From NCBI GenBank assembly GCA_016193065.1, contig JACPSX010000146.1:1-7532 (forward strand): 7,532 nucleotides of DNA, in the 5' to 3' direction. Made by a program: the position numbers and the translations under genes. Shown piece by piece: positions 1,997-7,115 of the stretch. Origin of the DNA: Candidatus Tectimicrobiota bacterium (GTDB lineage: Bacteria > JACPSX01). Within the stretch, counting starts at the first letter, position 1. Each line of letters opens with the position of its first letter. The notes below the pieces were generated by a model. The model was not told the origin of the DNA and did no database searches. It saw only the letters and a list, made by a program, of their open reading frames with translations.

Positions 1997-3373
1997 TTGA
2001 AAAAAGGACTCTGGCTGTTGGGCCTGCTGTCAGCAGTTGTCTACTCGGTCAATTTTCGAGTGGGCGATCTCTTGACTCGCGTTGGAATCCTGAGTGTTCC
2101 CCCGCAGAAAATTATTTCCTATCTGTTCCAGCTCGTCCCCTTGAGCCTGTTTTACGTTTTGTCCCTGCGCCTCGTTCGTCGTGCAGAAGGAGAGAACGGG
2201 AAACACGCAATCCCTGGCATCCTCCTCTTGGCTCTCCTTTTCCGCTTGCCTCTGGCTCTTCAGGCTCCGGACCTCTCCAGTGACCTCTATCGCTATCTTT
2301 GGGACGGGAAGGTACAGGTTTCCGGAGCAGTGAACCCCTACCTGTACCCTCCGGGGGATGAGCGCCTGGCCTTTCTCCGGGATCAAGAAATCTATCCCAA
2401 CGTGAACCGCAAGGAGGCTCCCACCATCTATCCTGCCGGGGCTCAGCTTCTTTTCCGGGGGCTGAACTGGGCCGGTCTTAGCGACCCCGGGAAGTTTAAG
2501 GCCGCAGCCCTTGCCGCTGAGGGCTTCACTCTCTTTCTGTTGCTCCTCATCCTTAAGGAGCTCCGTTTGCCCCAGAGCAGGCTCCTGATCTACGCCTGGA
2601 ACCCCCTGGTCATCTACGAATTATTCCAGAGCGGGCATCTGGAAAGCTTTCTGCTCCCCCCGCTGCTGGGTTTCGTCTATTTCTTTCTCCGGGGTCGCCT
2701 GGTGGGGGCTGGGGCAGCGCTGGGATTGGCAACCTCCATGAAGTTGATCCCGGCCCTGTTCCTGGTGACGATCCCGCCAGGCAAGCGCCTTAAGATTGCG
2801 CTCCCTTTTCTGCTCGTTGTGATGCTCGCTTACCTCCCGTACGCCGGCGCCGGGGAAAAGATCTTCGGGTTTTTGCCCTCCTACTTCTCGGATCCCTCTG
2901 AGATCTTCAATCCAGGTCTGATCCAAACGGGGTTACTCTGGGTCGCCAGCGCCTTCACCCTTTCCTCTCCCTGGATCCGCCCCGTCCTCCTCCTTCTCCT
3001 CCTCGTTTTGTTGCTTCCGATCACTCGCTGCCCCGAAAAGTCGCCCGCGGACGTGGTTCCGAAACTCTACCTCACACTCAGCGCCTACTTCTTCCTGATT
3101 TATCCGGCTCTCCACCCCTGGTATCTTTCCTGGCTCATCCCTTTCCTGTGCCTGATCCCCTCCCGGGCCTGGCTTTACCTCTCTCTGGCACTTCCGCTCT
3201 CATACCTCAAGTATCTTGCGCCTGATGGGACCATGCCGACCTGGGTCACTTGGGTCGAGTTTGCTCCGCTGTACGCGCTGCTGGCTGCGGAGTATGCAAG
3301 AGTGAAACCCGTGAATCAGAGGATATCTCAGTGGTGCTTGGAAACCCGAACACAATCTTCCACTACGTTCTGA
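1997..3373 (+). CDS. GT-C fold polyprenyl-phosphate-dependent mannosyltransferase-like membrane protein (GT87/DUF2029-like)
   Basis: A 458-residue, very hydrophobic protein with roughly ten or more membrane segments. The first large external loop carries the acidic signature SSDLYRYLWDGKVQ (94-107; D96 is the likely catalytic/metal aspartate of GT-C enzymes), then NPY, then EIYPNVNRKEAPTIYP (131-146), a string typical of bacterial GT87/DUF2029 and MptB-like mannosyltransferases. Further family-like strings are YAWNPLVIYELFQSGHLES (199-217), MKLIPALF (248-255) and HPWYLSWLIPF (373-383). Such enzymes take a sugar, often mannose, from a polyprenyl phosphate carrier on the outer side of the membrane. 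The window also encodes a DPM-like synthase (6420) that could supply this donor. The last ~14 residues are polar, atypical, and overlap the start of the next gene. The sugar and acceptor are inferred only at class level. Confidence 0.85.
   Translation: MKKGLWLLGLLSAVVYSVNFRVGDLLTRVGILSVPPQKIISYLFQLVPLSLFYVLSLRLVRRAEGENGKHAIPGILLLALLFRLPLALQAPDLSSDLYRYLWDGKVQVSGAVNPYLYPPGDERLAFLRDQEIYPNVNRKEAPTIYPAGAQLLFRGLNWAGLSDPGKFKAAALAAEGFTLFLLLLILKELRLPQSRLLIYAWNPLVIYELFQSGHLESFLLPPLLGFVYFFLRGRLVGAGAALGLATSMKLIPALFLVTIPPGKRLKIALPFLLVVMLAYLPYAGAGEKIFGFLPSYFSDPSEIFNPGLIQTGLLWVASAFTLSSPWIRPVLLLLLLVLLLPITRCPEKSPADVVPKLYLTLSAYFFLIYPALHPWYLSWLIPFLCLIPSRAWLYLSLALPLSYLKYLAPDGTMPTWVTWVEFAPLYALLAAEYARVKPVNQRISQWCLETRTQSSTTF
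3318..3323 (+). promoter_or_regulatory. Ribosome binding site deciding the GT2 start
   Basis: AGAGGA at 3318-3323 lies 7 nt before GTG 3331 (10 nt before GTG 3334), inside the 3' end of the preceding gene. It favours a GTG start here over ATG 3250, which would add 27 residues without family character and overlap the upstream gene by 124 bp. Confidence 0.55.
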
Positions 3374-4371
3374 TCGGCTTTTACATCGTTTGCCTCAGTG
3401 GCCTTTTTTTGTACGGGACGAACTGTTACCTTCTCCTCCTGCGCTTTCGCAGCCATCGACTCCAGGGCCTGCGGGAGTACCGCCGGGTTCTCAGGGAATT
3501 CGCAGTGTCCCGATGGTACACGGACCCTCCTCGGGTCACCGTCCAACTGCCGGTTTACAATGAGCGCTACGTGATTGGCCGGCTCCTGAAGGCGGTTTGT
3601 GCTCTTGATTACCCTCGAGACCGGCTGGAGATCCAGGTCCTGGATGATTCTACGGACGATACCGTGGAAATTGTCCGCCGACTCGTAAGAGGGTACCAGG
3701 AGGAAGGGCTGTCCATTGCCCACATTCGCCGGGCCGGGCGGCAGGGGTTCAAGGCAGGAGCCCTCAGGAACGGGATGGAGACGGCCCGGGGAGAATTCAT
3801 GGCGATCTTTGACGCTGATTTTGTTCCTCCACCGGACTTCCTGCGCAAGACGATCCCCTATTTTTGTAATCCTCGTGTGGGAATGGTGCAAGTGCGCTGG
3901 GGACACATGAATCCGGACGACTCCCTCCTGACCCGGGCTCAATCCATCGGCATCGACGGCCATTTTTCCATCGAGCAGGGAGCTCGGGCCTGGTCGGGAC
4001 TCTTCCTCAACTTCAACGGTACGGCAGGAATCTGGCGGCGACAGGCGATCCTGGAGGCGGGGGGGTGGCAGGCCGATACCTTGACGGAGGATATGGACTT
4101 GAGTTACCGGGCCCAGCTTGCCGGCTGGCAACTCAAATACATGATGCACGTGAGCTGCCCGGCCGAGCTCCCCAGGCAGGTTTCCGCCTTTAAATCGCAG
4201 CAATTCCGCTGGGACAAGGGTTCCATCCAGCCCGCTCGCAAGCTGATCCCCGCCATTCTCAAGGCGCGTTGCTCCCGGTTTGCCAAATACCAGGCGATCC
4301 TTCACCTGACCCATTATCTGATCCATCCCTTGATGGTCGCAACCGTCTTCCTGTCGTTACCGTTGATGTGA
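3331..4371 (+). CDS. Membrane family-2 glycosyltransferase (cellulose/mannan-synthase-like), catalytic part of a frame-disrupted gene
   Basis: From GTG 3331 this gives 346 residues. An N-terminal TM helix (about 12-37) is followed by a complete processive-type GT2 domain: VQLPVYNERYVI, then VLDDSTDDT (D105/D106), FDADFVPPPDF (the DxD at 161-163 binds the metal and nucleotide sugar), NGTAGIWRR, TLTEDMDLSYRAQLAGW (TED 252-254, the catalytic base region) and SQQFRWDKGS (QxxRW 290-294). It should use a nucleotide sugar in the cytoplasm to extend a glycan. The frame then runs into a TM helix (HPLMVATVFLSLPLM) and stops abruptly at TGA 4369-4371. The remaining C-terminal membrane domain continues in another frame from about 4374, so the gene looks broken. 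An intact family member would be roughly 500 residues or more. All catalytic motifs survive. An alternative annotated start is ATG 3250. Confidence 0.8.
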   Translation: MVLGNPNTIFHYVLIGFYIVCLSGLFLYGTNCYLLLLRFRSHRLQGLREYRRVLREFAVSRWYTDPPRVTVQLPVYNERYVIGRLLKAVCALDYPRDRLEIQVLDDSTDDTVEIVRRLVRGYQEEGLSIAHIRRAGRQGFKAGALRNGMETARGEFMAIFDADFVPPPDFLRKTIPYFCNPRVGMVQVRWGHMNPDDSLLTRAQSIGIDGHFSIEQGARAWSGLFLNFNGTAGIWRRQAILEAGGWQADTLTEDMDLSYRAQLAGWQLKYMMHVSCPAELPRQVSAFKSQQFRWDKGSIQPARKLIPAILKARCSRFAKYQAILHLTHYLIHPLMVATVFLSLPLM

Positions 4372-4380
4372 CCTCCCAGC
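4360..4380 (+). other. Junction of frame disruption and probable small internal deletion in the GT2 gene
   Basis: At this point the reading changes from frame 1 (ending SLPLM-stop) to frame 3 (beginning TSQRVLYPDW). From what I recall of the family, some 30-50 residues, including at least one membrane helix, normally separate these two strings. This implies loss of about 100-150 bp in a length not divisible by three, rather than a one-base slip. Whether it is genuine or an assembly/sequencing error cannot be told from one sequence. Confidence 0.55.
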
Positions 4381-4802
4381 GCGTCCTCTACCCGGACTGG
4401 CGTTCCAGAGTTCGCTGGATCCCTTTGCTTACACTGGTAGGCACCGGCATCGCTCTGAATAATTCTCGGGCGGTATTGGAAGGCGCTTTCTTCGCCGGAG
4501 GGGATTTCATCCGTACCCCCAAGTTCGGAGTTCGCAGCGGGGGGGAGCTGCGCGGCAAACTACGGAGCTATCGATCCAGGTTTCATGTGCTTGCCTTCCT
4601 GGAGTTCGCTCTTGGTTTGTACGCTCTTCACACCTTCAGCATCGCCCTGATCACCGGGAGGTTTTGGATTACTCCCTTTCTATTTATTTATGCCTGCGGT
4701 TTTCTCTACATTTCATTGAAGAGCATGGGAGAGTTTCTGGACTGGTCTTTCTGGAGATGCTCTTGGGTCCGGAAGGGGAAATCCCCCCAGGAAGGAGAAT
4801 AA
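4368..4802 (+). CDS. C-terminal membrane domain of the same split GT2 (frame-shifted 3' part)
   Basis: The frame is open from 4269, but family-like sequence starts only at TSQRVLYPDW (from 4371). From there it has the features of the C-terminal region of the same GT2 family: SQRVLYPDWRSR, a TM with LVGTGIALNNSRAVLEG (23-39 counted from GTG 4368), RTPKFG (49-54), then two TM helices (about 75-95 and 97-117) and a basic tail. There is no catalytic motif. GTG 4368-4370 overlaps the TGA of the catalytic half (4369-4371) in a GTGA arrangement, so a separate 144-residue polypeptide could in principle be made by termination-reinitiation. More simply it is the 3' remnant of one gene with the 5' part at 3331. 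It ends 1 bp before the next start codon. Confidence 0.7.
   Translation: MTSQRVLYPDWRSRVRWIPLLTLVGTGIALNNSRAVLEGAFFAGGDFIRTPKFGVRSGGELRGKLRSYRSRFHVLAFLEFALGLYALHTFSIALITGRFWITPFLFIYACGFLYISLKSMGEFLDWSFWRCSWVRKGKSPQEGE
4792..4798 (+). promoter_or_regulatory. Ribosome binding site of the PQQ-propeller gene
   Basis: AAGGAGA at 4792-4798, 5 nt before ATG 4804, inside the last codons of the GT2 3' part. It indicates tight operon packing. Confidence 0.7.
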
Positions 4803-4803
4803 G

Positions 4804-6411
4804 ATGGGAGTGAAGTTTTCACCGGGCCTGACAATCCTGCTGATTCTGGTCGTGGGACTTCCGCTCCCTTCACCCGAAGGGCAGGTCCTGGCGGAAAGCC
4901 CCTGGCTCACGTATCGCCGCGATCTGAAGCGGACGGGGCGCAGCGACACTACGGGCCCCGCCACGGACCGGGTGCGGTGGATCTTCTCAACAGGCCGCCC
5001 GGACAAGCAAGGGGGGATTGAGACCGATCCGGTGATCGGGCCGGACGGAACGGTCTACATCGGAGCAAACAACGGGATCCTCTACGCTCTGGACCCGGAA
5101 ACGGGGGGCGTGCGCTGGGCATTTCCCACCGGATTCGATACCTACGCAATTTATTCCACCCCCCTCGTGGACCGCAACGGGATTGTTTACTTCGGAGCCA
5201 AGGATGGCAACGTCTATGCGCTCAGGGCTCCGCGCCGGGGGATCATCGGGGAGGTGGTCTGGTCTCTGAACCTCGGGACCACGATTCAGACCTCGCCTGC
5301 CTTCACCCCGGACGGCACCCTCGTCATCGGTGCGGATGACTGGGCCTACTACGGGATCACCCCACCCCGGGGCGGCAAGGGACCGGAAGTGAAATGGCGC
5401 TTCCAGACACAGGGGACTCTGATCAGCTCCCCGGTTGTGGACTCTGACGGGACGGTCTTTGTGGCCTCCATGGACGGGAAAGTCTATGCCCTCGATCCGC
5501 CCAAAGAGGCGGGGCGGCCGGTGAAAATTCGCTGGAGCTTCAGCTCGGGGGAGCGGGACGCCAAAGGGGGATTCGAAAACGCTCCGGCCATCGACGCAGA
5601 GGCAACGCTCTACATCGGCGGAAACGACGGGATTCTCTATGCCCTGGACACCAAGACGGGGAAGGTCAAGTGGACCTTTGACGGGGTCGCCCGATCCGGC
5701 TACCGCACCTATGCAATCTTCTCTTCCGTCGCGATTGGGCCGGACCGCACCATCTACTTCGGGGGCAAGAACGGCATCCTCTACGCGGTCCGCGAGCGCC
5801 GGGGCTTCCTCCGTAGCGGTCCTGAGGTGGTGTGGCGCTACAAGCTGGGTCCCGGCATCCAGTCCTCGCCCCTCCTGGCGGCCGACGGCACCGTTTACCT
5901 GGGCGACGAGCAGGGGAATTTCCACGCGGTTCGGCGGCCGCAGTCCGGCGAGTGGGCCAGCGCTCTGTGGAAGTTTGCAACGAAGGGAACGCTGATCTCT
6001 TCCCCGACTCTTGCCACGGACGGCACCCTGTACGTGGGATCGATGGATGGGAATCTTTACGCCTTCAAGGCTCGCGGCGGCACCCCGGCCTCTCGTCCGA
6101 GGCCGTTCTCGGGGACCTGGTATGGAGCCTACGAAAGCCCCATCGCCGCCGGGAACATTCGGGCGGTTCTTGTGCAAGATGGTTCCCGGGTGTGGTCCAC
6201 CTGGTTCCTGGCGGGAATGGGACGGGGAGAAGTGCAGGGGACCGTCCAGGGGAACCGCCTCGTGGTGTCGGGTCCCATCCATACCGCCCGTTGCCAGGGC
6301 ACCGTCTCGGGCGAGGGTCGGCTGGAAGGGGGCGAGATTCGCGGCGAGGTCCGGGTGGAGCGCTGTGAAGGAGTCGTGGTAACGGGCCGGTTTACCCTTC
6401 GCAATCACTGA
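4804..6411 (+). CDS. Exported PQQ-like (BamB/quinoprotein-type) eight-bladed beta-propeller protein with C-terminal beta domain
   Basis: A 535-residue protein with a Sec signal peptide: K4, hydrophobic core about 8-21, likely cleavage after VLA (28-30). SPWLTYRRDLKRTGRS (32-47) is the usual lead-in of PQQ-like propellers. Eight PQQ-like repeats of the form DGTVYIGxxDGxxYALD...W follow, with blade cores near 81-97, 126-140, 170-185, 215-231, 267-282, 315-329, 361-376 and 407-421. Residues 434-535 form a different, Gly-rich beta domain beginning FSGTWYG (435-441) and holding two cysteines (C497, C521), possibly a disulfide. The family includes BamB-like scaffold proteins and quinoprotein dehydrogenases, but I see no catalytic or PQQ-binding dehydrogenase set, so a scaffold or binding role at the envelope is more likely. 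It is embedded between glycosyltransferases, 1 bp after one and 8 bp before the next, and is probably co-translated with them. Confidence 0.9.
   Translation: MGVKFSPGLTILLILVVGLPLPSPEGQVLAESPWLTYRRDLKRTGRSDTTGPATDRVRWIFSTGRPDKQGGIETDPVIGPDGTVYIGANNGILYALDPETGGVRWAFPTGFDTYAIYSTPLVDRNGIVYFGAKDGNVYALRAPRRGIIGEVVWSLNLGTTIQTSPAFTPDGTLVIGADDWAYYGITPPRGGKGPEVKWRFQTQGTLISSPVVDSDGTVFVASMDGKVYALDPPKEAGRPVKIRWSFSSGERDAKGGFENAPAIDAEATLYIGGNDGILYALDTKTGKVKWTFDGVARSGYRTYAIFSSVAIGPDRTIYFGGKNGILYAVRERRGFLRSGPEVVWRYKLGPGIQSSPLLAADGTVYLGDEQGNFHAVRRPQSGEWASALWKFATKGTLISSPTLATDGTLYVGSMDGNLYAFKARGGTPASRPRPFSGTWYGAYESPIAAGNIRAVLVQDGSRVWSTWFLAGMGRGEVQGTVQGNRLVVSGPIHTARCQGTVSGEGRLEGGEIRGEVRVERCEGVVVTGRFTLRNH
4972..6075 (+). 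repeat. Two tandem four-blade modules in the propeller gene
   Basis: Residues 57-242 align with 243-424 blade by blade, with an offset rising from 185 to 191 residues because of small indels. Matched pairs: KGGIETDP/KGGFENAP; GILYALD in both; TYAIYS/TYAIFS; YFGAKDGNVYAL/YFGGKNGILYAV; VVW in both; GTLISSP in both; SMDGKVYA/SMDGNLYA. The order of the four blade types is kept, so the propeller arose by duplication of a four-blade unit. DNA identity between halves is clearly lower than protein similarity, so the event is not recent. Confidence 0.85.
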
Positions 6412-6419
6412 GAACGATC

Positions 6420-7115
6420 ATGAAGGTTTCTCTCATCATCCCCGCCCTCAACGAGGAAGAGTCCCTGCCGGGAGTCCTGGCTGCTATCCCTCGGAACGGG
6501 GTAGATGATCTCATTGTCGTTGACAACGGGAGCAGCGACAGCACAGCAGCCGTTGCCCGCCGGGCGGGTGCCCAGGTAATTACAGAGACGCGCAAAGGGT
6601 ACGGAGCCGCCTGCCGGGCCGGAGTGCAGGCTGCCGGCGATGCCGATATCCTCGTGTTCATGGATGGAGACGGTAGCTTCTCGCCTGCCGAGATTCCTCA
6701 GCTCACCGCACCCATCACGCATGGAGAGGCGGATCTGGTCCTGGGCACCCGGACTGCAAGGTTCGAGGATACCTGTGCAATTCCTCTGCACGCTCGCCTG
6801 GGGAACCGGTTCATCGCGAGGATCATCGGGTTTGCTTCCTCGATCCGGATCACGGACCTGGGCCCGTTTCGCGCCATTCGTCGCGCCGCCCTGGAGTCCC
6901 TCCGGATGGAGGAGGGCACCTACGGCTGGCCCAGCGAGATGATCATCAAGGCAGCCAAGCTCCAGTACCGGATCAGCGAGGTCCCTGTGAGCTACCGGCC
7001 GCGGACCGGGGGCAAATCCAAGGTGTCGGGGACCATTTCGGGAAGTATCAGGGCTTCTCTTTCCATCCTCAAAGTCACAGCCCGCTGGTCTTTGTGGACC
7101 CCCGACGGCACATGA
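6420..7115 (+). CDS. Family-2 glycosyltransferase, polyprenyl/dolichyl-phosphate sugar synthase-like (DPM1 type)
   Basis: A 231-residue soluble GT2. It shows SLIIPALNEEESLPGVL (4-20), IVVDNGSSDSTAAVARRAG (32-50; D35 region binds the nucleotide), the RKGYGAACRAGVQAA motif (58-72), the DxD metal site in FMDGDGSFSP (80-89; D82 and D84), LVLGTRTARFE (106-116), GNRFIAR, and TDLGPFRAIRR (145-155) with TYGWPSEMIIKAAK (167-180). These are typical of dolichyl-phosphate mannose/glucose synthases. There is no C-terminal TM domain, as in DPM1-type enzymes of this length. It should transfer a sugar from GDP or UDP to a polyprenyl phosphate at the inner face of the membrane, which would feed the GT-C enzyme at 1997. 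ATG 6420 is 8 bp after the previous stop with no strong ribosome site, so translational coupling is likely. The stop overlaps the next ATG (ATGA, 7112-7115). Confidence 0.9.
   Translation: MKVSLIIPALNEEESLPGVLAAIPRNGVDDLIVVDNGSSDSTAAVARRAGAQVITETRKGYGAACRAGVQAAGDADILVFMDGDGSFSPAEIPQLTAPITHGEADLVLGTRTARFEDTCAIPLHARLGNRFIARIIGFASSIRITDLGPFRAIRRAALESLRMEEGTYGWPSEMIIKAAKLQYRISEVPVSYRPRTGGKSKVSGTISGSIRASLSILKVTARWSLWTPDGT

Follow-up and report, generated by a model that had tools for sequence, protein, structure and literature searches.

Gene Content of the Contig and the Two Parts of the GT2 Gene

The window analysed here is a whole contig of 7532 bases, and its forward strand carries a membrane GT2 gene in two parts that lie in different reading frames. 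The 5′ part (3331–4371, + strand), delimited by sequence, family profiles, alignment and anti-Shine–Dalgarno (anti-SD) pairing, starts at a GTG at 3331 with an AGAGG upstream (anti-SD pairing of −5.8 kcal/mol). It encodes TM1, the catalytic domain and the first part of TM2, and it ends at a TGA (4369–4371). The D, D, TED and QxxRW motifs of GT2 enzymes are found within 3331–4368 as LDDSTD, DADF, TEDMD and QQFRW. The 3′ part (4372–4802, + strand), supported by sequence, alignment and a structure model, is out of frame and encodes SQRVLYPDW, NNSRAVLEG, a gating-loop-like RTPKFG motif and two TM helices. The original prediction had the catalytic half stopping at this TGA, with a GTG at 4368 overlapping the stop and the C-terminal half resuming in another frame, and this arrangement was confirmed: the C-terminal frame is open from the GTG at 4368–4370 to a TAA at 4800–4802, giving a GTGA overlap at 4368–4371 (+ strand).

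In Pfam and NCBIfam, the 5′ part matches GT2 families, with a weak similarity to CelA (124 bits against an NCBIfam cut-off of 699), and the 3′ part has no family match. The post-catalytic TM helices and gating loop of a processive-type GT2 do not form one continuous chain with the catalytic domain here, RTPKFG being present only in the second frame. The gene is an ordinary membrane-integrated, processive-type GT2 with the cellulose/hyaluronan-synthase fold. It is present in a single copy, and a search of the same genome for a second or intact GT2 copy found none.

A gene for a multi-pass, glycosyltransferase-like membrane protein (1997–3373, + strand) overlaps the GT2 start and, by neighbour comparison, is conserved in relatives (L003 and several Bacteroidota loci). 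Downstream, family profiles identify a PQQ/BamB-type beta-propeller protein gene (4804–6411, + strand) and a soluble GT2 similar to AglJ and dolichyl-phosphate hexose transferases (6420–7115, + strand), the latter also being a neighbour conserved in relatives. The contig starts inside a gene whose remainder (1–236, + strand) is, judged by eye, probably the C-terminal end of another SPASM-type radical SAM protein; an intact radical SAM/SPASM gene (303–1406) follows just after it. Between this gene and the glycosyltransferase genes lies a membrane protein gene (1427–1966) whose match to DoxD, the large subunit of thiosulfate:quinone oxidoreductase, is weak (E 1.4e-5) and falls well short of the cut-off. 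Close to the end of the contig, a hairpin-like sequence of 21 bases was considered as a repeat family and rejected, as it occurs only once in the genome.

A Segment Is Missing at the Junction

The full open frames of homologous loci, taken from the genome scan and from sampled genomes, gave 51 intact proteins for alignment with the two window parts. Measuring the gap in this way, as the original prediction had envisaged, showed that 23–32 residues are absent exactly at the junction, and 30 residues in the comparison with 28 of the 51. Identity on the left side is high up to HPLMVATVFLSLPLM, and on the right side it returns at SQRVLYPDW. The predicted absence of a linker is thus upheld, and its size, usually 30 residues, falls at the low end of the 30–50 residues that had been proposed. 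The junction, at which about 30 codons of the homologues are missing, maps to 4354–4372 (+ strand), the exact breakpoints being unreadable from the sequence. Since the reading frame changes at the junction, the length of the loss must be 1 mod 3; it comes to about 70–97 nt, most likely 85, 88 or 91 nt. Relative to the intact homologues, this is a frame-breaking loss of the kind that marks a pseudogene.

The AlphaFold model of L003, the closest intact homologue (pLDDT 88.7), places TM2 at residues 344–367 and TM3 at residues 371–399. In this model, the missing stretch corresponds to residues 363–392, that is, the last residues of TM2 and the greater part of TM3. Both the descent of the gene from a single chain and the site of the loss are shown.

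In the PDB, the model of the intact homologue is matched best by synthases of the BcsA/hyaluronan synthase type (9b8v and 4p00, TM-score of about 0.6; 7sp8, 0.57), with about 13–19% identity in the structural alignments, and the sequence profiles agree with the likeness to BcsA. In this fold, the gating loop and the final helices help to form the polymer channel.

The Gene Is Unbroken at This Position in Homologues

Intact bacterial membrane GT2 homologues (L003 in G056; L013, L018 and L012; and those of the large-genome phylum of G028) share the catalytic motifs, the C-terminal motifs and the gene neighbours with the window gene, and they are 45–63% identical to it in the catalytic half. They differ in being single chains of about 480–610 residues in which the TM2–TM3 segment is present. 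A family profile search found the gene in 145 of the 195 genomes of the G028 phylum and in all nine of the G052 phylum; as we read the tabulated results, the junction is spanned in one frame by about 141 loci of the former and 8 of the latter, and the remaining ones either break elsewhere or run out at, or close to, the edge of a contig. Together with the 51 aligned proteins, this amounts to about 200 homologous loci (three counted twice), all from other phyla, in which one frame runs through the junction, without a single split at this place.

Two breaks at other positions were considered as evidence of a conserved split and rejected for that reason. In L069 (G176:C1:1377600-1379400), from a complete genome, a frameshift interrupts the catalytic domain of a GT2 of the same family, the matched stretches overlapping by 4 bases, and the remaining listed genomes of its genus carry the gene intact. 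In L024 (about 2180–3777), from an Ardenticatenia draft genome, a frameshift lies shortly after the equivalent of the junction with nothing missing, and is probably a sequencing indel. A literature search on split glycosyltransferase genes in draft genomes found nothing relevant.

The GTGA Overlap Carries Little Weight for a Two-Polypeptide Enzyme

The overlap at 4368–4371 has the form of a coupled gene pair, in which a start codon overlaps the upstream stop (NTGA). Translational coupling is common in overlapping start/stop pairs (PMC6728339), and conserved motifs are present in both halves. Hence, the locus could be read as a two-polypeptide enzyme made by termination–reinitiation at GTGA, with a catalytic subunit carrying TM1–TM2 and a 144-residue gating-loop subunit carrying two TM helices. 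A precedent for a GT2 synthase that can need a small membrane partner is the poly-GlcNAc synthase PgaC/PgaD (IcaA/IcaD), in which, as in the proposed pair, the GT2 synthase is accompanied by a separate small subunit in the membrane (PMC8461298). However, PgaD is reported to be without homology to known folds (PMC8461298); unlike PgaD, the 3′ part of the window gene corresponds by homology to the C-terminus found in a single-chain family, minus one helix.

To ask how often such an overlap would arise by chance, deletions of 82–94 nt (1 mod 3) were simulated at the equivalent place in the 51 homologous genes. In 38.5% of the 6272 trials, an ATG, GTG or TTG of the C-terminal frame overlapped the newly formed stop. 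Because it is this frequent by chance, the GTGA overlap carries almost no weight, and together with the lack of SD pairing we judge it to be coincidental. At GTG 4368, there is no SD pairing (+0.7 kcal/mol, compared with a background mean of −3.7), unlike at most genes of the contig: four others pair with the anti-SD at −5.8 to −11.1 kcal/mol, with only weak pairing (−2.7) for the soluble GT2 at 6420. Overlapping downstream genes have an SD in most phyla, and its removal lowered reinitiation in four of five E. coli pairs, although an SD is not always essential (PMC6728339). The absence of an SD at GTG 4368 therefore speaks against coupling without excluding it.

Further points argue against two polypeptides. 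The arrangement is kept in none of the roughly 200 loci of other phyla, most of TM3 has gone and has moved to neither part, and the C-terminal piece modelled alone gives a low-confidence structure (pLDDT 68). A two-polypeptide enzyme is thus very unlikely, and it is highly improbable that a synthase split into catalytic and gating-loop subunits by termination–reinitiation either dispenses with this core helix or has it supplied by another protein.

At the stop, one frame directly adjoins the other, which would also suit a programmed ribosomal frameshift fusing the halves into one chain. However, frameshifting could not restore the missing 23–32 residues, and the fused chain would be one transmembrane crossing short, leaving the C-terminal part on the wrong side; we consider this extremely unlikely.

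A Probable Recent Deletion or Assembly Error

On both sides of the junction, the sequence still resembles the family. The catalytic half retains 88 of the 89 columns with a conservation of at least 90% among the 51 homologues, and the C-terminal half 18 of the 22 with at least 70%, in line with the original prediction that the catalytic motifs and C-terminal strings are all present. The similarity of the C-terminal part to its nearest homologues is what the catalytic part would predict, with no decay; averaged over all homologues, it is about one standard deviation low. The GC content by codon position follows a coding-like pattern in both parts, more weakly in the C-terminal one. The lack of decay and the coding pattern imply that a deletion would be young. 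As the halves keep the family residues and the genes on either side agree with those of relatives, the break is either recent in one lineage or present only in the assembly.

The first possibility, that an ordinary GT2 gene lost about 85–91 nt in one recent out-of-frame deletion, is somewhat better than an even bet. The second, that the cell's gene is intact and that the draft dropped these 85–91 nt or took up a minority strain variant, is a serious contender at rather less than even chances. The break is seen in one assembled contig, which could itself be an assembly product, and the lack of decay fits an artefact as well as it fits a recent deletion. The genome (G000, 2.9 Mb) is a draft of 294 contigs, 86% complete, and the GT2 contig is short; both halves appear to be under full constraint, and the family is otherwise unbroken at the junction. 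Against an error, most reading frames in the rest of the assembly are sound, with about one broken among some 55 ABC-transporter domains, and there is no sign of a collapsed repeat at the junction, though a repeat may have gone with the segment. A join of unrelated contigs is unlikely because the gene neighbours match on both sides, and a chimera was ruled out since the upstream glycosyltransferase-like gene and the downstream soluble GT2 recur around the homologues. A search for the exact junction 21-mer in viral contigs found no match.

The conserved neighbours, the single copy and the sound frames elsewhere lean slightly towards a real deletion over an assembly or strain-mixture error, the odds of an artefact being not much lower given the draft state of the genome, and we infer that the organism itself carries the deletion and that it did not arise in the assembly. 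In summary, a frame-breaking deletion, real or artefactual, very probably accounts for the locus. Of the three readings in the original prediction, a deletion making a pseudogene and an assembly collapse share nearly all of the probability, and the two-polypeptide enzyme is not supported.

Consequences of the Break

If the deletion is in the cell's DNA, it would take away the final stretch of TM2 along with most of TM3 and place a TGA at the junction. Translation would then stop at 4371, yielding a GT2 domain with TM1 and an incomplete TM2 that would lack the gating-loop motif and the final C-terminal helices; a separate C-terminal product, if made, would still be without TM3. Such a truncated protein would very probably be inactive, and a loss of the synthase activity is to be expected.

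As it stands, the case matters little: the gene is widespread, and this is a single broken copy from the draft genome of an otherwise unsampled phylum. It does carry a caution: more than a third of frame-breaking deletions like this one produce an NTGA overlap, which is therefore weak evidence of coupling. Were the two-chain reading true, it would mean that a gating loop can act in trans in a GT2 synthase.
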